Assembly (NCBI RefSeq): GCF_014701095.1
Contig: NZ_AP023439.1
Location: 5,196,001-5,260,000 of the forward strand
Reading direction: 5' to 3'
DNA length: 64,000 bases
Source of the DNA: Streptomyces tuirus
Lineage (GTDB): Bacteria; Actinomycetota; Actinomycetes; Streptomycetales; Streptomycetaceae
Translations under genes and position numbers: made by a program
Notes under the pieces: model-generated
Seen by the model: the letters and a program-made list of their open reading frames with translations, nothing else
What the model was told of the DNA's origin: nothing
Database searches by the model: none
In this document: positions 4,695-63,539 of the stretch, piece by piece
Layout: each line of letters begins with the position of its first letter
Numbering within the stretch: the first letter of the stretch is position 1

Positions 4695-5624
4695 ATGGCC
4701 GGTCCAGCGTTCCGCGCCGCCGCCGTCCGGGTGCGCGTCCCCGCCACCAGCGCCAACCTCGGCCCGGGCTTCGACGCCCTCGGCCTCGCGCTGGGCTTGT
4801 ACGACGACGTGGTCGTCCGGGTGGCCGACTCCGGGCTGCACATCGACATCGCGGGTGAGGGAAGCGAGACGCTCCCGCGCGACGAGCAGCACCTTCTCGT
4901 GCGTTCCCTGCGCACCGCCTTCGACCTGCTGGGCGGACAGCCGCGCGGTCTGGAAATCGTCTGCGCCAACCGCATTCCGCACGGCCGGGGTCTCGGCTCC
5001 TCCTCGGCCGCCATCTGCGCCGGGATCGTCGCCGCCCGCGCCGTCACCATAGGGGCCGACGCCAAGCTCGACGACACGGCGCTGCTGGAGCTCGCCACCG
5101 AGATCGAGGGCCACCCCGACAACGTCGCGGCGTGTCTGCTCGGCGGCTTCACGCTGTCCTGGATGGAGGCCGGCGCCGCCCGCGCGATCAGGATGGACCC
5201 CGCCGATTCCATCGTTCCGGTGGTTTTCGTCCCCGGAAAGCCGGTCCTGACCGAAACGGCGCGCGGCCTGCTCCCGCGCACCGTTCCGCACGTCGACGCA
5301 GCCGCCAACGCGGGCCGGGCCGCCCTGCTCGTCGAAGCCATGACGCGCCGCCCCGAGCTGCTGCTGCCCGCCACCGAGGACCGTCTGCACCAGGAGTACC
5401 GCGCACCCGCCATGCCCGAGAGCGCGGCACTGGTGGAGCGGCTGCGGGGCGACGGCATCCCCGCGGTGATCTCCGGGGCCGGACCCACGGTCATGGCCCT
5501 GGCCGACGCCGAGACCGCCGACAAGGTCGAGGCCCTGGCAGGCGCGGAATGGGCCGCGAACCGGCTGCGCCTCGATCAGCAGGGCGCGAGCGTGCTGCCG
5601 CTCGCGGCCTCCGGCGATATCTGA
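4695..5624 (+). CDS. thrB: Homoserine kinase
   Basis: 309-residue GHMP-superfamily kinase that phosphorylates homoserine with ATP to give the substrate of ThrC. VRVPATSANLGPGFDALGLA is the GHMP N-terminal motif, and PHGRGLGSSSAAI is the ATP-binding glycine/serine loop. ISGAGPTVMAL is the C-terminal GHMP motif. ATG 4695 is preceded by AAGGAGA (4678-4684). The frame stays open upstream to 4539, but that part has no family similarity. The length is normal. Confidence 0.95.
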   Translation: MAGPAFRAAAVRVRVPATSANLGPGFDALGLALGLYDDVVVRVADSGLHIDIAGEGSETLPRDEQHLLVRSLRTAFDLLGGQPRGLEIVCANRIPHGRGLGSSSAAICAGIVAARAVTIGADAKLDDTALLELATEIEGHPDNVAACLLGGFTLSWMEAGAARAIRMDPADSIVPVVFVPGKPVLTETARGLLPRTVPHVDAAANAGRAALLVEAMTRRPELLLPATEDRLHQEYRAPAMPESAALVERLRGDGIPAVISGAGPTVMALADAETADKVEALAGAEWAANRLRLDQQGASVLPLAASGDI

Positions 5625-6027
5625 ATACGGCGCGGTTGCCGGATTTCGAGAGGGGGAATGTTTGTTGGATCCGGTAGTGTTAACCTCAAGTCTGCACCCG
5701 ACCCCACCATGGCGAGGTGCCTTGTGTCCCCGTCCGGGACAGACATTCTTCCGGGAGCCCCCCAAGCCGCACTGTGTTCTGTACGTCGGACCGTACGCCG
5801 TACAAGGGCACTGAGCGGGGCGCAGGGCATGCTCCGGAACCGGTGCGACCACGCCGCGTGACACTGACACTGGGTGCCACGGCTCAAGGAAGCGCCATCA
5901 CCAGATTCCTCCGCCGCTTAGGCGGACCACCGCCCCGGCACGGTTCACACCACACGGACCGAAGTCGGACAGCACAACCGGTCGCCGAGCCAGACAGGCC
6001 GACGTCCGCTCCAGGGAAGGACCCTTC
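5625..6027. other. Long rho leader region
   Basis: This 403-base gap precedes rho and holds no convincing gene. A SigR-like promoter candidate is at 5655-5681. The region after it is rich in short inverted repeats, such as the GTACG/CGTAC elements around 5790. A 67-codon frame at 5658-5861 lacks an RBS and protein character. Long leaders before rho fit known Rho autoregulation, but nothing here proves it. Confidence 0.5.
5655..5681 (+). promoter_or_regulatory. Possible SigR-type promoter of rho
   Basis: GGAAT at 5655-5659 is followed after 19 bases by GTT at 5679-5681. The Streptomyces SigR (oxidative/thiol stress sigma) consensus is GGAAT-N18/19-GTT. The spacing is at the long end, and no vegetative promoter was recognised nearby. 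A start near 5690 would leave a leader of about 340 bases. Confidence 0.35.
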
Positions 6028-8061
6028 GTGAGCGACACCACCGATCTGATGGGCGCACGTGTCGAGGAGACCGCTGCCGCGCCCGCCACGGACGCCTCCG
6101 CGCCTGCCACCGGTGCCGGCTCCCGGCGGCGCCGCGGTACCGGCCTCGAGGGCATGGTGCTGGCCGAACTGCAGCAGGTCGCATCCGGCCTCGGCATCAG
6201 GGGCACCGCGCGTATGCGCAAGAGCCAGCTGATCGAGGTCATCAAGGAGGCACAGGCGTCCGGCGGCGCCGCTCCGGCCGCGAAGGCCGACGCGCCCGCC
6301 GAGACCAAGCCCAAGCGCCGCGCCACCTCGCGGACCCGTACGGGCGACAACGCCGAGAAGGCGGACAAGAAGGCGGACGCGAAGGAGGCCCCCCAGGCCC
6401 CCGCGGACCAGGCCGACAAGGCCGTGGCCCAGCAGCAGATCGAGATCCCCGGCCAGCCGGCCGGCGGCCCCGCCCGCGACGGGGGGGACGAGGCGCCCGA
6501 GCGCCGTCGCCGCCGGGCCACCGCCGAAGCCGGAGCCCCGGCCTCCGCTGCCGCGGAGACCATCGTCGCCGAGGCGAAGAACGACACCAAGTCCGAGACG
6601 CAGTCGCAGCAGCAGTCCCAGGGCAACGACGCCAAGTCCGACGGCGGTGACGGCGGCGAGGGCCGTCGTCGCGACCGCCGGGACCGCGGCCGGGACCGCG
6701 ACCGCGACCGTGACCGCCGCGGTGGCAAGGGCGACGACCAGCAGGGCGGCCAGCGCGGCCAGCAGCAGGGCCAGGGCGGCGGCGGCCGTCAGGACCGTGG
6801 TCAGCAGCAGCAGGATGACGACGACTTCGAGGGCGGGCGTCGTGGCCGTCGCGGGCGCTACCGCGACCGCCGGGGCCGTCGCGGCCGTGACGACGTCCAG
6901 GAGCCGCAGATCACCGAGGACGACGTCCTGATCCCCGTCGCGGGCATCCTGGACATCCTCGACAACTACGCGTTCATCCGCACGTCGGGCTACCTGCCCG
7001 GCCCGAACGACGTGTACGTCTCCCTCGCCCAGGTCCGCAAGAACGGCCTGCGCAAGGGCGACCACGTCACCGGTGCCGTGCGCCAGCCCAAGGACGGCGA
7101 GCGGCGCGAGAAGTTCAACGCGCTGGTGCGGCTCGACTCCGTCAACGGCATGGCGCCCGAATCGGGCCGCGGGCGGCCGGAGTTCAACAAGCTGACGCCG
7201 CTGTACCCGCAGGACCGCCTCCGTCTGGAGACGGACCCGGGCGTCCTGACCACCCGCATCATCGACCTCGTCGCGCCGATCGGTAAGGGCCAGCGCGGTC
7301 TGATCGTGGCCCCGCCGAAGACCGGCAAGACCATGATCATGCAGGCGATCGCCAACGCGATCACCCACAACAACCCCGAGTGCCACCTGATGGTCGTCCT
7401 CGTCGACGAGCGTCCGGAAGAGGTCACCGACATGCAGCGGTCGGTGAAGGGCGAGGTCATCTCCTCGACCTTCGACCGCCCGGCCGAGGACCACACCACC
7501 GTCGCCGAGCTGGCCATCGAGCGCGCCAAGCGCCTGGTGGAGCTGGGCCACGACGTGGTCGTCCTGCTCGACTCGATCACCCGTCTGGGCCGCGCGTACA
7601 ACCTCGCCGCCCCGGCCTCCGGCCGCATCCTGTCCGGTGGTGTCGACTCGACGGCGCTGTACCCGCCGAAGCGCTTCTTCGGTGCGGCCCGCAACATCGA
7701 GGACGGCGGCTCGCTGACGATCCTCGCCACCGCCCTGGTGGACACCGGGTCCCGCATGGACGAGGTGATCTTCGAGGAGTTCAAGGGCACCGGCAACGCC
7801 GAGCTGAAGCTCGACCGGAAGCTCGCCGACAAGCGCATCTTCCCGGCGGTGGACGTCGACGCGTCCGGCACCCGCAAGGAAGAGATCCTGCTGGCCCCGG
7901 ACGAGCTGTCCATCGTCTGGAAGCTGCGCCGGGTGCTGCACGCGCTCGACCAGCAGCAGGCGGTCGAGCTGCTTCTCGACAAGATGAAGCAGACGAAGTC
8001 GAACGCCGAGTTCCTGATGCAGATCCAGAAGACCACCCCGACGCCGGGCAACGGCGACTGA
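6028..8061 (+). CDS. rho: Transcription termination factor Rho
   Basis: 677-residue hexameric RNA helicase that ends transcription of untranslated RNA. The GTG start has GGAAGGA upstream. Order: Rho_N helical segment (about residues 45-75, [19 protein letters not shown]), a long Arg/Asp/Gly/Gln-rich low-complexity insert (about 80-290, with many GRRGR and DRDRDR runs), an OB-fold RNA-binding domain containing [15 protein letters not shown], then the RecA-like motor with Walker [10 protein letters not shown] and Walker [12 protein letters not shown]. coli Rho is 419 residues, so the basic insert accounts for nearly all the extra length; such inserts are common in high-GC actinobacteria and probably add RNA affinity. 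A GC-rich hairpin follows the stop. Confidence 0.97.
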
Positions 8062-8090
8062 GGCAGGTCGACCGCGTAAGAACCGCACAA

Positions 8091-8122
8091 GAGGGCCGTC
8101 CCCCGAACTGGGGGCGGCCCTC
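8091..8122 (+). terminator. GC-rich hairpin after rho
   Basis: Arms GAGGGCCG and CCCCC (8091-8104) pair with GGGGG and CGGCCCTC (8110-8122) around a GAACT loop, with a single bulged T. No long T-run follows. It lies 30 bases past the rho stop and upstream of the protease gene. Confidence 0.75.
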
Positions 8123-8187
8123 TGTGCTGTTCGGGTGCGGATAGGATCACGCTCTCTTCGAACTTGTGATCCCGAGGGGGGACATTC

Positions 8188-9975
8188 GTGGGTACACCCA
8201 TGCCCGGGGGCGGTCGGCACAGACGCCGGATACGCATAGCACTGCCCGTCGCCGCGGCCGGTGTGGCCGCCGCCGTGGCCGGCGCGCTGCTGACGACCTC
8301 CGCCGGTGCGGCCACCGTGCTGCCGCAGCCGAAGGTCAGGCCCGCCGCCGACGCGCCGTCGCCCGCCGAGCTGCAGAAGCGGGTCGCGGGCGCCATGGCC
8401 GGTGACGACGTCGCCGGCAAGACGGGCAAGGCCGCGCTCACCGCGGGCACCGTCGCCGGCGGCATCGACGCGAAGGTCATCGGCGGCAACGAGACCACCA
8501 TCAGCACGGCCCCGTGGATGGCGCAGCTCCACTACTACGACGACCGGGGCACTTCCAGCACCGGCGACGACATCGGCTTCTTCTGCGGCGGCGCCGTCGT
8601 CGCGCCGACGAAGATCCTCACCGCCGCGCACTGCGTCAAGGGCTACAACTGGTACGCCAACGGTGCCGTCGTCACCGGCACCTCCAAGCTGCCCTCGGAC
8701 AACGGCGCCGACCTGCACGGCGGTACCGCCACGGCGGTCTGGCGGCAGTGGAACCACTCGTCGTACGACCCGACGGCCATCGACAACGACATCGCGGTGC
8801 TGACGCTCGACACCGCGGTCAAGGCCACGCCGATCCGCATGACGACGTCAGGTGACACCGCGTCGTACAAGGCCGGCGTCAGCGCCAAGGTCTACGGCTG
8901 GGGCCGCACCAGCTCCACCAGCGACGACATCTCCGAGACGCTGAAGACCGCCACGCTGCCCATGCAGTCCGACACGACCTGCTCCGGCGCGTACGGCAGG
9001 AACTTCGTCAAGGGCCACATGGTCTGTGCGGGCAAGCCCGCCACCGGCAGCGACACCGGCACCGTCTCGGCCTGCAACGGCGACTCCGGCGGCCCCCTGG
9101 TGGTCAACAACCGGATCGTCGGTGTCGTGTCCTGGGGCGTCACCGACTGCGTCGCCAAGGGCGCCTACAGCGTCTTCAGCAAGGTCAGCACGTACATCGG
9201 CGCCACCTACCCGCGCGTCGACGACGCCAACCTCAGCGGCGACAGCAAGGCCGACCTGTGGGTGCGCAACGCCTCCACCAAGACCGGCTACTCCAAGGAC
9301 TCCAAGGGGACGTCGTTCGCCGCCCGTCAGTCCTGGGGCAACTGGAACGGCGTGAACGTCGTCCTGCAGACGGACCTCGACCGCGACGGCTACCAGGACC
9401 TCGTCTACCGGCGCAGCAGCGACGGCGACGTCTTCTGGGCCTCCGGCCGTACGGGCACCACCAAGCAGATCGCCGACAACTGGAAGACCCGCACCCGGAT
9501 CGTCACCCCCGGTGACGTCACCGGCGACTACCTGCCCGACCTGCTCTCGGTCGACTCCGCGGGCGTCCTGTGGATCTACCCGGGCAAGGGCAACGGCACC
9601 TTCGCGACCCGTGTGAAGGTCGGCACCGGCTGGAACCAGTACAACTCCGTGCGCGGCAAGGGCGACTTCAACGGGGACGGCAAGACCGACCTGATCGCCC
9701 GCAGCAAGTCGGGCAGCTACCTCTACCTCTACAAGGGCACCGGCAAGGCCGGCTCGGGCGCCTTCTCGGCCCGCGTCAAGGTGCGCACGTGGGACGGCTA
9801 CAACGCCTTCGACGCGCCCGGCGACGTCACCGGCGACGGCAGGGCCGACTTCCTGGCCCGCACCCCCGGCGGCACGCTGTATCTGTACGCGGGCACCGGC
9901 AAGGGGACGAGCGAGATCTTTGCCACAAGGAAGTCCGTCGGCACCGATTTCAAGCAGTACGACATCTTCGGCTGA
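8188..9975 (+). CDS. Secreted trypsin-like serine protease with FG-GAP repeats
   Basis: 595-residue predicted exported protease. The N-terminus (RRRIRIALPVAAAGVAAAVA, ending near TSAGA) is a signal peptide. A chymotrypsin-fold domain follows with the full triad: His148 in TAAHC, Asp201 in DNDIAV and Ser300 in GDSGGP. The C-terminal 240 residues contain about five FG-GAP/VCBS-type repeats, for example DRDGYQDLV, DVTGDYLPDLL, DFNGDGKTDLI and DVTGDGRADFL, which usually bind calcium and form a beta-propeller-like module. GTG 8188 has a GAGGGGG ribosome site at 8173-8179. Flanking hairpins indicate a single-gene unit. Its substrate is unknown. It sits between rho and the LCP gene and may be a lineage-specific insertion. 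Confidence 0.9.
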   Translation: MGTPMPGGGRHRRRIRIALPVAAAGVAAAVAGALLTTSAGAATVLPQPKVRPAADAPSPAELQKRVAGAMAGDDVAGKTGKAALTAGTVAGGIDAKVIGGNETTISTAPWMAQLHYYDDRGTSSTGDDIGFFCGGAVVAPTKILTAAHCVKGYNWYANGAVVTGTSKLPSDNGADLHGGTATAVWRQWNHSSYDPTAIDNDIAVLTLDTAVKATPIRMTTSGDTASYKAGVSAKVYGWGRTSSTSDDISETLKTATLPMQSDTTCSGAYGRNFVKGHMVCAGKPATGSDTGTVSACNGDSGGPLVVNNRIVGVVSWGVTDCVAKGAYSVFSKVSTYIGATYPRVDDANLSGDSKADLWVRNASTKTGYSKDSKGTSFAARQSWGNWNGVNVVLQTDLDRDGYQDLVYRRSSDGDVFWASGRTGTTKQIADNWKTRTRIVTPGDVTGDYLPDLLSVDSAGVLWIYPGKGNGTFATRVKVGTGWNQYNSVRGKGDFNGDGKTDLIARSKSGSYLYLYKGTGKAGSGAFSARVKVRTWDGYNAFDAPGDVTGDGRADFLARTPGGTLYLYAGTGKGTSEIFATRKSVGTDFKQYDIFG

Positions 9976-11365: not shown

Positions 11366-11468
11366 TTGGGAGTAGGCCCCAGTCCTGGCAGACTGGTACG
11401 TCGGCTCCGGTTCACGCTCGCGCACCCCGCGTCAGCGACCCGGCGCCCTCCCGAACCTAGGAGACACC

Positions 11469-31215: not shown

Positions 31216-31788
31216 TCAGCGCTCCCCGCCCGGCACCCACAGCACGTCTCCGACCTCCTTGTTCGCCGTCCTCGCGAGGATGAACAGGAGGTCGGACAGG
31301 CGGTTGAGATACGTCGCCGTCAGGGGGTTCATCACCTCGGCGTGGACCTCCAGCGCCGCCCACGTCGAGCGTTCGGCCCGGCGTACGACCGTGCAGGCCT
31401 GGTGGAGCAGGGCCGCGCCGGGGGTGCCGCCGGGCAGGATGAAGGAGCGGAGCTTCTCCAGCCGCTCGTTGAAGCGGTCGCAGTCCGCCTCCAGCTTGTC
31501 GATGTAGAACTGCTCCACCCGCAGGGGCGGGAACTCCGGGTTCTCCACCACCGGCGTCGACAGGTCCGCCCCCACGTCGAAGAGATCGTTCTGGACGCGG
31601 GTGAGGACCGTGACGATCTCCTCGTCCAGGCCGCCCAGCGCGATGGCCGTGCCGATCGCCGCGTTCGCCTCGTTGGCGTCGGCGTACGCGGAGATCCGCA
31701 GGTCGGTCTTGGCGACCCGGCTCATGTCGCCGAGGGCGGTGGTGCCCTGGTCGCCGGTCCTGGTGTAGATGCGCGTCAGATTGACCAT
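31216..31788 (-). CDS. Cob(I)alamin adenosyltransferase, PduO type
   Basis: 190-residue enzyme that transfers adenosyl from ATP to cob(I)alamin, making coenzyme B12. N-terminal TRIYTRTGDQGTTALGDMSRVAK is the PduO ATP-binding motif; later FILPGGTPGAALLHQACTVVRRAER and YLNRLSDLLFILAR are conserved trimer-interface and cobalamin-contact segments. The cofactor is needed by IcmA and other mutases, whose partner genes mce and meaB are also in this window. Confidence 0.94.
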   Translation of the reverse strand: MVNLTRIYTRTGDQGTTALGDMSRVAKTDLRISAYADANEANAAIGTAIALGGLDEEIVTVLTRVQNDLFDVGADLSTPVVENPEFPPLRVEQFYIDKLEADCDRFNERLEKLRSFILPGGTPGAALLHQACTVVRRAERSTWAALEVHAEVMNPLTATYLNRLSDLLFILARTANKEVGDVLWVPGGER

Positions 31789-32195: not shown

Positions 32196-33044
32196 GTGGC
32201 ACGGAAGCTCGCCGTCATCGGAGCCGGCCTCATGGGATCCGGCATCGCCCAGGTCTCCGCACAGGCGGGCTGGGAGGTGGTCCTGCGGGACGTCACCGAC
32301 GAGGCACTGACGCGGGGCACCGACGGCATCAAGGCGTCGTACGACAAGTTCGTCGCCAAGGGCAAGCTGGAGGCGCACGACGCCGACGCCGCCCTGGCCC
32401 GCATCACCGCGACCACCGACCTGGACGCCGTCGCCGACGCTGACGTCGTCGTCGAGGCCGTCTTCGAGAAGCTCGAGATCAAGCACGAGATCTTCCGTGC
32501 GCTCGACAAGATCGTGAAGGACGAGGCCGTCCTCGCCTCCAACACCTCCGCCATCCCGATCACCAAGATCGCGGCGGCGACGGAACGCCCGGAGCGGGTC
32601 GTCGGCACGCACTTCTTCTCGCCGGTGCCGATGATGCAGCTGTGCGAACTCGTCCGCGGCTACAAGACCAGCGACGAAACCCTCGCCACGGCCCGCGAGT
32701 TCGCCGAGTCGGTCGGCAAGACCTGCATCGTCGTCAACCGCGACGTCGCCGGCTTCGTGACGACCCGGCTCATCTGCGCCCTGGTCGTCGAAGCCGCGAA
32801 GCTGCAGGAGTCGGGCGTCGCGAGCGCCGAGGACATCGACCTCGCCTGCAAGCTGGGCTTCGGTCACGCCATGGGCCCGCTGGCGACGGCGGACCTGACG
32901 GGCGTCGACATCCTGCTGCACGCCACGAACAACATCTACACCGAGTCCCAGGACGAGAAGTTCGCCGCCCCCGAGTCGATGCGCCGGATGGTTGACGCCG
33001 GTGACATCGGACGCAAGAGCGGGCAGGGCTTCTACAAGCACTGA
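32196..33044 (+). CDS. 3-hydroxybutyryl-CoA dehydrogenase
   Basis: 282-residue NAD(P)-dependent enzyme that reduces acetoacetyl-CoA to 3-hydroxybutyryl-CoA or runs the reverse step. The Rossmann motif is LAVIGAGLMGSGIAQ; the active site contains LASNTSAIPITK and VVGTHFFSPVPMM with the catalytic histidine. NRDVAGFVTTRL and GFGHAMGPLATADLTG lie in the dimerisation domain. GTG 32196. The gene is monocistronic and ends in a perfect hairpin. It likely works with the thiolase at 49382 in the ethylmalonyl-CoA pathway or in butyryl-CoA supply for polyketides. Confidence 0.94.
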   Translation: MARKLAVIGAGLMGSGIAQVSAQAGWEVVLRDVTDEALTRGTDGIKASYDKFVAKGKLEAHDADAALARITATTDLDAVADADVVVEAVFEKLEIKHEIFRALDKIVKDEAVLASNTSAIPITKIAAATERPERVVGTHFFSPVPMMQLCELVRGYKTSDETLATAREFAESVGKTCIVVNRDVAGFVTTRLICALVVEAAKLQESGVASAEDIDLACKLGFGHAMGPLATADLTGVDILLHATNNIYTESQDEKFAAPESMRRMVDAGDIGRKSGQGFYKH

Positions 33045-33108
33045 AACCGCACATGCCCCGGTCCCATCACACGCCAGGGTGAATTCGGTATCGGTTCGCT
33101 TACAAGAA

Positions 33109-33143
33109 GCAACCTCTGACACCTCCACACAGTCAGAGGTTGC
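33109..33143 (+). terminator. Hairpin between hbd and the STAS gene
   Basis: GCAACCTCTGAC (33109-33120) and GTCAGAGGTTGC (33132-33143) form a perfect 12-bp stem with an 11-base loop. It lies 64 bases after the hbd stop and 50 before the STAS gene. It could end hbd or be an operator of the STAS gene. Confidence 0.65.
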
Positions 33144-33193
33144 ATCACCCACATCAGAACGCGGAGCACGATTCGCACGCACGGGGAGCGCAT

Positions 33194-33517
33194 ATGTACA
33201 TCAGGGGCGACCACGCCGAGCTGGTCGTCGGGGGCCGCCTCGACGTCCGGAGCGCGGCGGACGCCCGTACGGTCCTGCACTCGGCCGTCGACGACGGAGT
33301 CGGAGACCTGGTGCTGGACCTGTCCGAACTGGACTCCTGGGACGCCACCGGACTGGGCGTGATCATGGGGGCCCACCGGCGGGCCGGCCGCTGCGGCCGG
33401 CGCCTGGTGCTGCGCGGAGTACCACCGCAGATGCAGCGCCTGCTGGTGGCCACCCGCCTGCACCGGATCCTGGCGATCGAGGGCGGCATCGGGGTGGAGA
33501 CCCTTCCCCGCGTGTGA
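33194..33517 (+). CDS. STAS-domain anti-anti-sigma factor-like protein
   Basis: 107-residue single STAS domain (SpoIIAA/RsbV fold). Opening beta strand AELVVGGRLDVRSAADAR and central LVLDLSELDSWDATGLGVIMGAHRRA are typical. The phosphorylation site, normally D-S-S/T-G, here reads DATG, so Thr takes the place of the usual Ser. Such proteins free sigma factors by binding anti-sigma kinases. ATG 33194 has GGGGAG at 33183-33188. No sigma or anti-sigma gene is adjacent. The next gene encodes a large P-loop-like membrane protein. Confidence 0.87.
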   Translation: MYIRGDHAELVVGGRLDVRSAADARTVLHSAVDDGVGDLVLDLSELDSWDATGLGVIMGAHRRAGRCGRRLVLRGVPPQMQRLLVATRLHRILAIEGGIGVETLPRV

Positions 33518-33784
33518 CGCCTCCCGCGGGTGTGAGCCGGGCGACCGGGGAGACCCGGACGCACGTCGTCGAATCGTGCGACGCGCACAATCCTCACGAG
33601 ACCGTGACGTTACGGACGGCGCGGTACCCCGGACTGTCGTAGATACTGTGCGAAGGTTTAGGGTTCGGCTGCCCGCTGCCATGACACCCTTCGAGCGGGA
33701 CCGGACCAGAAGCGACAGCGCGGTGTGCAGCAAGGCCGGGAGGGGCTTTTCCGAGCACGCACACGCTTTTGGGGGGCTTGACCT

Positions 33785-36280
33785 ATGGATCCTGACAACC
33801 AGGGACCCGAGGAGTACGGCCACGACGGTGACGGCCATGCGCCGCGCCAGCGCCCTCCCAGGGAATCCCTCACACCCGACTTCGCGCAGCACGCGCCGGC
33901 GCTCGCCCGCACGGTGCAGCTCGTCTCCGGCGACTTCCTGCTGACCGTCAACCCCGTCGACGGCAGCGAGATCGAAGCCTGCCCGCCCACCGAACGGCCC
34001 GCCCGGCCCGTCAAGCTCACCGCGGCCGAACGCGCCGAGGTCGAGCGGGCGGCCCGCCCGCCCGTTCCGCCCGGCCCCGCGCTGCCGGCCCTGCCGCTGC
34101 TGGCCCGCCAGGACGAGCGCGAGCGCCTGGTGCGCCTGCTCGCCCGCGGCCGCTCCACCCGCCTCACCGGCGCGCCCGGCTCCGGCCGCACCCGCCTCCT
34201 CGACCTCGTCGCCGAGGACTGCTCCGACCTCGCCCCCGACGGCGTCGTCCGCCTCAACGGCTTCGGACGCACCTCCGACGACCTGCTGTACGACCTGTTC
34301 CACGCGGTGTACAGCGCCCCGCTGTACCGCCCGGCCCGCGACGAGCTGCTCACCCACGTGCGGGAGATCGGCGCGGTCGTCGTCCTCGACGACCTGGAGT
34401 TCGGCGGCGCCGCGCTCGACGAGCTGCTGGAGGCCACCCCCGAGTGCGCCTTCCTGCTCGGCGCCACCCCGGACGTGCCGGCCCCCTCCGCCGGAGCCGG
34501 TGTCGAGGAGGTCCTCCTCGGCGGACTGGAACGCGCGGCCGGCCTCGACCTGCTGGAGCACGCCGTCGGCCGGACCCTCACCGAGGACGAGTCCAACTGG
34601 GCGGGCGACCTCTGGTTCGAGTCCGAGGGCCTGCCGCTGCGCTTCGTCCAGGCCGGCGCCCTGCTCCGGCAGCGCGACCGGCTGCGCGCCGGCACCGGCG
34701 CCGTCGACGAGTTCGGCGTCTTCGAGGACGCGCCCCCGGCCGACCCCGCGGGGGCCTACGACCTCGGCGACGACGTGCCGTTGCCCGCGCTCGGCGAGGC
34801 CGCCGCGCCCGCGCCGCTGCTCGCCTCCCGGCTGAGCGCCTCCGCCCGCGCCACCCTGCGGTTCGCCGTCGCCCTCGGCGGCGAGGTCCCGCACCAGGCG
34901 CATCTGCCCGCCCTGGTCGGCGACACCCACGCGGACGCCGCGCTCGGCGAACTGGCCGCCTGCGGCCTGGTCTCCCCGGTCGGCTCCCGCTACCGCCTCG
35001 CGGCCGGCGTACCGGCCCAGCTGGAGGCCGCCGGGTACGCCGACGAGGCCGAGGCCGGCGCCCGGAGCGCCGCACAGCACTACTCCTGGTGGGCCGGGCA
35101 CCCCTCGGTCACCCCCGAGCGGGTGTGCGCCGAGGCCGACGCGGTCCTCGCCGCCCTGGCCCTCCTCGGACCCGCCACCCGGCCGGCCGCCGAGGGCGAG
35201 GAGAGCGCGGCCGTGCACCTGGCCCGCACCGCCGCCCCCGCGTTCGCCGCCGGACTGCACTGGAACGCCTGGGAGCGGGCCCTGCGCTCCGGCGCCGAGG
35301 CCGCCCGGCTCGCCGGGGACGTCGGTGAAGAGGCCTACTTCCACCACGAGCTCGGTGTCCTCGCCCTGTGCGGGGGCCGGCTCGACCGGGCCCGTGCCGA
35401 ACTGGAGGCCTCCATCGGCCTGCGCGGCGCCCTCGCCGACAAGCGCGGCACCGTCGCCGGCCGCCGTGCCCTCGCCCTGGTCGCCGACCGCTCGGGCACA
35501 CCCATCGGGCTCGGGCCGACCGCGGGGGAGGAGGTGCCCGACACCCGTGACGAGGAGTCGGCGTCCCCGCCCGGCGGTGTTCCGGCGGCCTTCCCGACGC
35601 TCCAGAAGCCGCCCTCCCCGACGCTGGTCACCCACCGCAGCTCGCCCGCGCCCTCACGCAAGGCCGGCGGCCTCAAGGGCCTCGCCCGGCGCAACCTCGT
35701 GGCCGCCGGCGCCGGCGCCCTGCTCGTGGCCGTCCTGGGCACGGTGGTGACGCTCGGCGCCACCTCCGACAACGACGCGAACCCGCCGTCCGACCAGGTC
35801 GGCGTCAACCCCTCCGCCAGCCAGGGCATCGACGGCGGCAGCCTCGGCGCCGACCCGGCGGCGAACGACGGCGACGGCGACAACGGCGAGCCGGCCCCCC
35901 GCCCGACGGACCCGGGCCCCGACGGCACGCTCGGCACGTCGGACGACCCGACGCCGACGGACTCGCCCAGCGGTTCGCGGGAACCGAGCGATGCGGCGTC
36001 GCCGTCGAAGCCGTCGTCGACCTCGAAGCCGCCGACGACGTCAAAGCCGCCCACTTCGAAGCCGCCGACGTCGAAGCCGCCGACCTCCAAGCCGCCGACG
36101 TCCGTGCCGCCGACCTCGCAGCCGCCCACCTCCGTGCCGCCGACCTCGGAGCCGCCCACGACCAGCCCGTCCACCTCCGACTCGGCCAGCGGCCCGGCGC
36201 CCAGCGCTCCCACGAGCACCTCGGCGAGCGCGCCGCAGAGCAGCACCGGTACGCCGAGCAGCCCGGAGATGGTGATCTGA
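33785..36280 (+). CDS. Large P-loop-like membrane protein with PPTSK-repeat extracellular tail
   Basis: 831-residue protein without a recognised name. An acidic N-terminus precedes a possible NTPase region: a Walker A-like GAPGSGRTR at residues 129-137, where Arg replaces the invariant Lys, and a Walker B-like AVVVLDDLEFGG. The middle (about 350-600) is helical and Ala/Glu/Leu-rich with TPR-like repeats. One membrane helix (about 638-660, VAAGAGALLVAVLGTVVTLGA) separates it from a Ser/Thr/Pro tail with about ten PPTSx repeats (about 740-800), probably outside the cell and likely glycosylated. It resembles STAND/AfsR-like architecture without a DNA-binding domain. A terminator follows. Confidence 0.75.
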   Translation: MDPDNQGPEEYGHDGDGHAPRQRPPRESLTPDFAQHAPALARTVQLVSGDFLLTVNPVDGSEIEACPPTERPARPVKLTAAERAEVERAARPPVPPGPALPALPLLARQDERERLVRLLARGRSTRLTGAPGSGRTRLLDLVAEDCSDLAPDGVVRLNGFGRTSDDLLYDLFHAVYSAPLYRPARDELLTHVREIGAVVVLDDLEFGGAALDELLEATPECAFLLGATPDVPAPSAGAGVEEVLLGGLERAAGLDLLEHAVGRTLTEDESNWAGDLWFESEGLPLRFVQAGALLRQRDRLRAGTGAVDEFGVFEDAPPADPAGAYDLGDDVPLPALGEAAAPAPLLASRLSASARATLRFAVALGGEVPHQAHLPALVGDTHADAALGELAACGLVSPVGSRYRLAAGVPAQLEAAGYADEAEAGARSAAQHYSWWAGHPSVTPERVCAEADAVLAALALLGPATRPAAEGEESAAVHLARTAAPAFAAGLHWNAWERALRSGAEAARLAGDVGEEAYFHHELGVLALCGGRLDRARAELEASIGLRGALADKRGTVAGRRALALVADRSGTPIGLGPTAGEEVPDTRDEESASPPGGVPAAFPTLQKPPSPTLVTHRSSPAPSRKAGGLKGLARRNLVAAGAGALLVAVLGTVVTLGATSDNDANPPSDQVGVNPSASQGIDGGSLGADPAANDGDGDNGEPAPRPTDPGPDGTLGTSDDPTPTDSPSGSREPSDAASPSKPSSTSKPPTTSKPPTSKPPTSKPPTSKPPTSVPPTSQPPTSVPPTSEPPTTSPSTSDSASGPAPSAPTSTSASAPQSSTGTPSSPEMVI
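36010..36175 (+). repeat. In-frame 15-base tandem repeats encoding PPTSx
   Basis: The 3' part of the preceding gene is made of 15-base units encoding Pro-Pro-Thr-Ser-Lys and variants ending in Val, Gln or Glu. About ten units are recognisable, with wobble-position differences between copies. They are coding repeats, with no spacers between the units, so this is not a CRISPR array. Confidence 0.85.
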
Positions 36281-36347: not shown

Positions 36348-37019
36348 TCAGAACAGCCGCAGCTTGTCGTCCTCGATGCCCCGCAGCGCGTCGTAGTCGA
36401 GGACCTGGCAGCCGATGCCGCGGTCGGTCGCGAGGACGCGGGCCTGGGGCTTGATCTCCTGGGCCGCGAAGACGCCGCGCACCGGGGCGAGATGGGGGTC
36501 GCGGTTCAGCAGCTCCAGATAGCGCGTGAGCTGCTCCACGCCGTCGATCTCACCGCGCCGCTTGATCTCCACCGCGACGGTCCTGCCGTCGGCGTCCCGG
36601 CAGAGGATGTCGACCGGCCCGATGGCCGTCGGGTACTCGCGGCGGATCAGCGTGTAGCCGTCGCCGAGTGTCTCAATACGGTCGGCGAGCAGCTCCTGGA
36701 GGTGCGCTTCCACGCCGTCCTTGATCAGGCCGGGATCGACGCCCAGTTCGTGCGACGAGTCGTGGAGGACTTCCTCCATCGTGATGATGAGCTTCTCGCC
36801 CGCCTTGTTGACGACGGTCCAGACGCCCTCCTCCTCGCCGGTGCCCTCCTTCAACGTGCAGGGCGGCGACATCCAGTTCAGAGGCTTGTAGGCCCGGTCG
36901 TCGGCGTGGATCGAGACGCTGCCGTCCGCCTTCACCAGGATCAGGCGCGGGGCCGAGGGAAGGTGGGCGGTGAGCCGCCCGGCGTAGTCCACGGAGCAGC
37001 GGGCAATGACGAGACGCAT
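36348..37019 (-). CDS. nucS: Mismatch-repair endonuclease NucS (EndoMS)
   Basis: 223-residue nuclease that cuts both strands at mismatches and gives the non-MutS mismatch repair of actinobacteria. The N-terminal DNA-binding half ([20 protein letters not shown]) is followed by the RecB-like nuclease core with GPVDILCRD and VAVEIKRRG (catalytic Asp, Glu, Lys). The final residues KLRLF resemble the C-terminal peptide by which NucS binds the sliding clamp. Start 37019 gives the conserved MRLVIARC; a frame three codons longer exists. Confidence 0.95.
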
Positions 37020-37271
37020 GGTCGGCAACGCTACTCGACGGGCACCTGTCCACGCGATTCGCCCTGGAAAACACGTGTTCAGTAATGGCCGATTGTGTGC
37101 ACGAAGTGGTCAGCGGGAGTGTCTCATCTGCGCATTTTCCTGGTGCGGTCACCGTACGGTGCTTACCGTAGGAACGGGAGGTCGCGGTGCGTGTACGCAG
37201 CGTGTCCGGTATCGCGAACTCCCTTATCTGTCAGGCAACCCCTGCTCGTCGGGGGTGCGAGAGGAGAACTC

Positions 37272-37664
37272 ATGTCGCTCGACGTCTCACCGGCCCTACT
37301 CGAACAGGCCGAGCGAGGCGAGGTCGACGAAGCGGAATTCGTCGACTGCGTCCGGACCTCCCTGCCCTACGCGTGGGAGATGATCAGCTCACTGGTGGCC
37401 CAGCTGAAGGTGGACGGCGGCGCGTTCGCCGACAACCAGACGCCCCCGCCGGACGAGCAGGCACGCGGTCAGCTGCTGCGTGCGCTTGCGAGTGACGCGA
37501 TACGCGGCGCGCTGCAACGGCACTTCGGTGTGCGCCTGGCCTTCCAGAACTGCCACCGGGTGGCCGTGTTCCCGCTTGACTCCTCGGTCGACGAGAAGCT
37601 GGACCGCTTCACCTCGGTCCGCAGTCAGGTGCTGAACCAGTCACCCGAGTTCCGGGACTGCTGA
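37272..37664 (+). CDS. SCO5389-family protein of unknown function
   Basis: 130-residue soluble protein. It has no membrane helices or signal peptide. A conserved stretch includes SLPYAWEMISSLVAQLK and AIRGALQRHFGVRLAFQNCH. The sequence is known to me only as a conserved streptomycete family named after its S. coelicolor member. ATG 37272 has GAGAGGAG at 37259-37266; the frame open from 37095 runs through a promoter-like region. It diverges from nucS, with 252 bases between them. Confidence 0.82.
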   Translation: MSLDVSPALLEQAERGEVDEAEFVDCVRTSLPYAWEMISSLVAQLKVDGGAFADNQTPPPDEQARGQLLRALASDAIRGALQRHFGVRLAFQNCHRVAVFPLDSSVDEKLDRFTSVRSQVLNQSPEFRDC

Positions 37665-63274: not shown

Positions 63275-63340
63275 GAGCCGGCGGCAGTGGCGCCGGCTCT
63301 TGGACAGGGGGGTCTTCGCCCTTCCGGCGAAGCCTGTCCA
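63275..63340 (+). promoter_or_regulatory. Two adjacent leader hairpins
   Basis: GAGCCGGCG (63275-63283) pairs with CGCCGGCTC (63291-63299). Next, GGACAGG (63303-63309) pairs with CCTGTCC (63334-63340) and CTTCGCC (63315-63321) with GGCGAAG (63327-63333), leaving a one-sided bulge. They lie 200-265 bases before the DUF6230 start. Confidence 0.6.
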
Positions 63341-63539
63341 GCAGGGTTGTGCGTGATGCGTGTCAGGCGCGACCAGTGGTTGTCGCTCGGGGGTGATCGC
63401 CGGTGATTCGGGCGCAGTTGCGCCGCCGAGTGCAGGCGCTCTCCTTCCCGAGGACGTAGCACTTCTCCCATCCCTGCCCGGCTGAGCCGCCAATCGGGGC
63501 GAGCCAGGACAGGAGATGTACGTCCGAGAAGGAGGAAAT

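Follow-up and report, generated by a model that had tools for sequence, protein, structure and literature searches.

STAND proteins (signal transduction ATPases with numerous domains) are switches; some act as sensors in immunity and defence, others, such as MalT and AfsR, as regulators. In one of them, Apaf-1, an engineered P-loop substitution (K160R) weakens activity without abolishing it, and oligomerisation is resisted only partly (PMC5123071). The present analysis concerns a gene of Streptomyces tuirus that encodes an 831-amino-acid (aa) protein, located in a 64,000-nucleotide stretch of contig NZ_AP023439.1 (positions 5,196,001 to 5,260,000), hereafter the window. Here, a STAND tethered to the membrane belongs to the core proteins of an entire genus of antibiotic producers with a multicellular lifestyle. 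Our preferred reading, to which we assign a probability of roughly 0.6, is a membrane-anchored STAND (NB-ARC/Apaf-1-like) switch that acts as a signalling scaffold tethered to the envelope and turns nucleotide over slowly or not at all. A preliminary description of the locus had named this open reading frame and a lone STAS gene just upstream on the same strand, and both are present at the positions given here. The features of the 831-aa protein are:

33785-36280, forward strand: STAND transmembrane protein, 831 aa, entire open reading frame (open reading frame call)
33914-33979, forward strand: N-terminal beta hairpin, residues 44-65, VQLVSGDFLLTVNPVDGSEIEA (near-invariant columns; strands in the AlphaFold model)
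34094-34519, forward strand: nucleotide-binding (P-loop) domain, residues ~104-245 (AlphaFold; Foldseek to Apaf-1 3sfz and PH0952 6mfv)
34169-34192, forward strand: Walker A loop G129-APGSG-R135-T136, Arg135 (34187-34189) replacing Lys (alignment of 152 sequences)
34376-34393, forward strand: Walker B VVVLDD, residues 198-203 (D202 in 152/152, D203 in 151/152)
34628-34639, forward strand: GLPL motif of the NB-ARC/STAND helical domain, residues 282-285 (G282 in 152/152, P284 in 151/152)
34814-35014, forward strand: winged-helix-like domain, residues ~344-410 (AlphaFold model)
35048-35494, forward strand: alpha-helical repeat (TPR-like) array, residues 422-570 (paired helices, predicted local distance difference test ~90, AlphaFold models)
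35690-35767, forward strand: single transmembrane helix, residues 636-661 (hydropathy 2.24; positive-inside rule)
35768-36277, forward strand: extracellular Pro/Ser/Thr-rich tail, residues 662-831 (composition, topology)
36029-36166, forward strand: nine PPT(T)S[KVQE] units, residues 749-794 (repeat count in the tail)

Residues 100-575 form an Apaf-1-like STAND ATPase core in the AlphaFold model, composed of a P-loop domain, a GLPL helix, a winged helix and helical repeats. Two models were used, a longer one built on 41 orthologues and a second one comprising the core (residues 100-575). With the core model, Foldseek returned murine Apaf-1 (3sfz) first (E 6.9e-8, template modelling (TM) score 0.50 normalised to the query), followed by PH0952 (6mfv, 2.8e-7) and then by Avs3, NRC3 and RPP1; with the longer model, the first STAND matches were PH0952, plant nucleotide-binding leucine-rich repeat proteins (NLRs) and Avs3. 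The preliminary description had proposed a comparison with STAND ATPases, and Apaf-1, PH0952, plant NLRs and Avs3 are indeed the best structural matches. Walker B and GLPL lie in register with the STAND core and are almost invariant. The TPR-like helices noted earlier correspond to residues 422-570, and TPR_12 is weakly matched in the STAND paralogue L158. AAA_16 is weakly detected in all 41 members of the genus alignment. The protein is classed as a STAND by its predicted fold, and as a variant one on account of its Walker A.

The Walker A motif of the family reads GxxGxGR[T/S]. Arg135 occurs in 152/152 sequences of a non-identical set that includes partial ones, so that the replacement of Lys by Arg recorded in the preliminary description is found throughout; the three P-loop Gly, Thr/Ser136 and the Walker B Asp202 are likewise invariant. 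The family thus lacks the Walker A Lys pattern (GxxxxGK[ST]) and possesses the Walker B pattern (hhhhDD/DE). A wider profile search retrieved Lys-bearing proteins of like layout, with STAND, helical repeats, one transmembrane helix and an outside part (L194, L205, L206, L215, which is the L164 gene, and L163). In the plasmid protein L271 (WP_332880965), the P-loop reads GYGKTT, and a hydrophobic segment is accompanied by an outside part that carries the annotation choice-of-anchor D; the protein occupies positions 1879-4239 of L271, a plasmid of Streptomyces sp. NBC_00564. The family's Arg proteins group together in the tree (support 94/96, slightly under the threshold set by the tree program), and the membrane proteins with Lys form a group of their own (99/97). 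Elsewhere in the tree, on a long branch, stands L082/L216, a remote NB-ARC protein encoded in the window genome that also carries Arg. This soluble NB-ARC/TPR protein (L082, 169-2235, at ~1.42 Mb in the window genome) has the Walker A GRPGSGRT.

Because sister proteins of like layout retain Lys, Arg135 looks like a fixed change instead of decay. Since the K160R form of Apaf-1 retains weak activity, Arg need not mean a dead site, and we infer that the STAND core binds nucleotide with impaired hydrolysis. The natural Arg135 is the substitution made in laboratories to impair STANDs, and offers a natural test of whether switching needs turnover. The invariant exchange of Lys for Arg is also what would be seen if the module were a pseudo-NTPase without nucleotide binding, i.e. 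a passive membrane scaffold or decoy; inactive STANDs are known as third components of ternary conflict systems (PMC7159879), and in the paralogue L159 a related Arg-type module is joined to a caspase and a kinase domain. However, the invariance of the remaining P-loop (three Gly, Thr/Ser136) and of Asp202 is not required of a dead site, and the gene, unmatched by PADLOC, belongs to the chromosomal core and has cobA, hbd, STAS and nucS around it, which leaves a pseudo-NTPase conceivable but unlikely.

The membrane helix of the preliminary description is located at residues 636-661, and family members long enough to include this region likewise have a helix behind the helical array; by the criterion applied, none was detected in 20 short loci that end before it or in the caspase-kinase fusion L159. 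Over 131 sequences, the net charge averages +4.6 across the 20 residues preceding the helix and -2.4 across the 20 following it, and an N-in/C-out topology is therefore predicted. The tail that follows holds seven PPTS against a shuffled mean of 0.25, and the nine units at residues 749-794 come close to the ten or so PPTSx repeats reported earlier. Their conservation does not hold: among the 131 relatives, at least three PPTS are present in 24 and none in 72, which have TP, PTK, SGGTG and other motifs instead. What persists across these sequences is a tail rich in Pro, Ser and Thr (median 54%) that spans 142-470 aa. Judged by its sequence, the PPTSK tail is a variable low-complexity spacer and not a conserved ligand. 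A PGPDGxxGTxD motif occurs in 94/151 sequences, some of which end before the tail, and in our view recalls calcium-binding loops.

The fold, motif, topology and distribution are firm computational results, and the promoter motif treated below was likewise obtained by computation; the nucleotide state, the oligomerisation, the signal and the target of the STAS protein are what we infer beyond them. In the proposed mechanism, the nucleotide-binding, winged-helix and TPR-like parts would be cytoplasmic, a single helix would anchor them to the membrane, and the disordered Pro/Ser/Thr-rich tail would extend into or through the wall. The trigger may be a cytoplasmic cue sensed by the TPR-like array or a change sensed by the wall-embedded tail; it would move the core between closed and oligomerising states and recruit partners to the membrane. 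With Lys-to-Arg fixed and Walker B retained, nucleotide would be bound but hydrolysed slowly or not at all; the binding of a ligand or partner, more than turnover, would then probably drive the cycle. Several points weigh against this switch. The whole-chain TM-scores are modest because the domain orientation is uncertain, the predicted TM-scores of the two models being 0.44 and 0.56. None of the Pfam AAA/STAND models exceeds its gathering cut-off for the 831-aa protein, the AAA_16 and AAA_22 matches being weak and below it. The tail comprises no folded domain able to serve as sensor. Finally, the literature search returned nothing on the STAS and STAND genes or their pairing. The part of the preliminary description that is supported is an undescribed transmembrane protein of STAND type.

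Of 133 genomes of the genus that were searched, 132 yielded a relative of the STAND core at E<=0.001; in other families of the same order and class, all matches are weak. The paralogues L158 and L159 are located away from any STAS gene of this type. L159 (G069, Streptomyces, 5612-8785) is a fusion of caspase-like, Ser/Thr kinase (PD-T4-6-like) and Arg-type STAND modules and looks like a conflict-system protein. This fusion, together with the structural matches to Avs3 and plant NLRs, raises the option of a membrane-anchored phage- or conflict-sensing STAND (Avs/NLR-like). The gene nevertheless belongs to the core of the genus, at one locus in the genomes examined and outside any island, PADLOC finds no defence-system match and the protein bears no effector domain. 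Phages have no match to the gene and plasmids only two, partial and below 40% identity; on these grounds an origin from phage or plasmid was rejected, and a phage- or conflict-sensing function appears very improbable.

The window genome is a 7.56-Mb single contig, with Streptomyces massasporeus and S. iakyrus as nearest relatives in the collection. Around the STAND gene, the order is cobA (-), hbd (+), STAS (+), the 831-aa STAND reading frame (+), nucS (-) and a SCO5389-family frame (+). Rfam matches elsewhere in the window are a che1 small RNA (63301-63402) and an L31-Actinobacteria ribosomal protein leader (11401-11447). The neighbouring genes are:

31216-31788, reverse strand: cobA, cob(I)alamin adenosyltransferase, steady companion of the STAS gene (Pfam, TIGR00636; synteny)
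32196-33044, forward strand: hbd, 3-hydroxybutyryl-CoA dehydrogenase (Pfam/NCBIfam)
33194-33517, forward strand: STAS-domain protein, 107 aa, anti-sigma factor antagonist type (Pfam STAS_2, TIGR00377)
36348-37028, reverse strand: nucS, NucS/EndoMS mismatch-repair endonuclease (NF002876)
within 37095-37664, forward strand: SCO5389-family ('NucS shadow ORF') reading frame (Pfam/NCBIfam scans)

The STAS protein matches Pfam STAS_2 (7.8e-16), also passes the Pfam STAS cut-off, and scores 56.6 bits with TIGR00377 against a cut-off of 53.45; its gene has the Shine-Dalgarno sequence GGGGAG at 33183. T52 of DATGLG (33347-33349) sits at the SpoIIAA phosphoserine position and is invariant in the near Streptomyces set, while outgroups have almost always Ser or Thr (Ala in L147). 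The STAS and STAND genes are adjacent and co-oriented in 76/76 near Streptomyces loci with a long enough contig, and in more distant streptomycetes the order is unchanged in every nucS-linked copy fetched; in the streptomycete locus L166, an apparent extra reading frame separates them. An RsbW-type kinase gene is not found alongside, the immediate neighbours being hbd and the STAND gene. Orthologues of 42-60% identity were examined in 20 loci of ~10 other actinomycete families. In all 20, cobA is near the STAS gene, in most cases together with nucS or hbd; no STAND homologue was found within the 10-18 kb fetched (blastp; profile search with filters off). The gene after STAS, named in three of these loci by reading the sequences and not by family search, is B12-dependent mutase-like in two and Na+/H+ antiporter-like in the third. 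Judging from these loci, STAS, cobA and nucS are an old syntenic group and the STAS gene is older than its pairing with the STAND gene, which would stand beside it because it was inserted or arose there in the Streptomyces lineage.

The preliminary description had treated the two proteins as one unit. Such a unit, in which the membrane STAND would govern whether the STAS protein is phosphorylated or sequestered, and through it an RsbW-type kinase and a sigma factor, accords with the adjacency and co-orientation in near Streptomyces loci, with the extreme conservation of the STAS protein there (92-100% identity), with T52 as a suitable phospho-acceptor and with the envelope-stress type of the STAS promoter. 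It is at odds with the 20 outgroup loci in which STAS lies beside cobA and nucS without a STAND gene, with the paralogues L158 and L159, with the apparent intervening gene in at least one streptomycete locus (L166) and with separate conserved upstream regions for the two genes. Moreover, the entire neighbourhood is syntenic; adjacency in Streptomyces belongs to that region and is therefore weak as an argument for a functional unit. The separation in related genomes that the preliminary description named as refuting is thus found in part: the pairing is kept within Streptomyces and is not seen in the other families sampled, and the single unit, which these separations do not support, is rather doubtful. 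A direct relay between STAS and STAND is possible but unlikely. In the preferred reading, the STAS protein would be a separate, older partner-switching protein (anti-sigma antagonist), expressed from an extracytoplasmic function (ECF)-type, sigma-E-like promoter.

The upstream regions of the two genes comprise the following elements:

33077-33098, forward strand: 22-bp conserved element GGGTGAATTCGGTATCGGTTCG, just upstream of the STAS promoter (at least 85% conserved, Streptomyces alignment)
33110-33134, forward strand: ECF-type promoter of the STAS gene, -35 CAACC, N17 between CAAC and AGTC, -10 AGTC (motif counts)
33585-33784, forward strand: conserved leader/promoter region of the STAND gene, ~200 bases, with TAGATACTGT and TTTAGGGTTCGG at 33639-33668 (blocks at least 85% conserved, 26 loci)

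When 21 of its 22 bases were searched, the element GGGTGAATTCGGTATCGGTTCG had a single genomic site at up to 3 mismatches and its reversed control none. CAAC-N17-AGTC precedes STAS in 77/92 Streptomyces loci (control 0.7%), and CAAC-N17/18-CGTC lies within 200 bp upstream of STAS in 13/20 outgroup loci (1.6% of random windows of those loci). The motif was first spotted by eye in outgroup loci that were later counted, and 40 further actinomycete loci were therefore examined as a held-out test. CAAC-N17-CGTC was detected in 21/40 of them, always with a spacer of 17 (3.6% of random 250-base windows), and in 16/18 of those whose STAS is at least 50% identical to that of the window. In its CGTC form, the promoter equals sigma-E promoters of S. 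coelicolor such as hrdD (GGCAACC..CGTCTT; PMC6767563 Table 1) in bases and N17 spacing, whereas the Streptomyces -10, AGTC, is not the most frequent -10 sequence. The genes SCO5385-SCO5387, whose presumed numbers are counted from nucS (SCO5388), were not found as sigma-E dependent in the main text of PMC6767563. On account of this absence and of the AGTC, another ECF sigma factor may use the promoter. A precedent for sigma-E touching partner switching is the ApgA gene, co-transcribed with bldG and reported in the sigma-E regulon (PMC10771440). The STAS promoter suggests a wiring of envelope stress to sigma-factor partner switching.

The conserved blocks that precede the STAND start are consistent with a promoter of its own. 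Rfam gave no match at E<=1 for the leaders of both genes, and scans for sigma-70 promoters and terminators found nothing. For the STAND leader, RNAalifold returned a lower energy than for column shuffles, a result that was discounted as the pairs hardly vary and shuffling breaks stacking. A riboswitch candidate named 'dauA' has been described ahead of a STAS gene in Streptomyces; in the part of its source available (PMC11109978), it could not be matched to the STAS gene of the window.

The cell-wall link to a sigma-factor switch in the preliminary description thus has some support from the envelope side, through the sigma-E-like STAS promoter; the PPTSK tail is not conserved and the pairing is weak. 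The strongest form of this link, a sensor of wall tension or wall damage that oligomerises without ATP turnover and passes the signal to STAS under an envelope-stress ECF sigma factor, seems improbable by a wide measure. If true, it would be a Streptomyces-specific bridge from the ECF envelope response to a SigB-like partner-switching network.

Among known systems, the Apaf-1/NB-ARC core (3sfz) shows the same succession of P-loop domain, helical domain of GLPL type, winged helix and helical array. The Streptomyces protein differs by its Walker A Arg, TPR-like array, membrane anchor and extracellular tail, and has neither CARD nor WD40. The archaeal STAND PH0952 (6mfv) likewise has a STAND core followed by a TPR array, but its match includes no membrane helix, and its Walker A is presumably canonical. 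The STAS protein resembles antagonists of the BldG/ArsI/SpoIIAA type in its single STAS domain and its D-x-[ST]-G-L-G signature with the phospho-acceptor position; it differs by its linkage to cobA, hbd and nucS, its ECF-type promoter and the lack of an anti-sigma kinase gene immediately alongside. The iSTAND of MoxR-vWA ternary conflict systems (PMC7159879) is also a STAND with an altered catalytic site. Here, in contrast, Walker B is intact, the gene is a core gene and its immediate neighbours (cobA, hbd, STAS, nucS) include neither MoxR nor vWA. The Lys membrane STAND sisters (L164/L215, L163, L194, L205/L206, L271) have the same STAND, helical array, single transmembrane helix and extracellular part, but carry a GK[S/T] Walker A and other outside parts, at loci that are not beside nucS.

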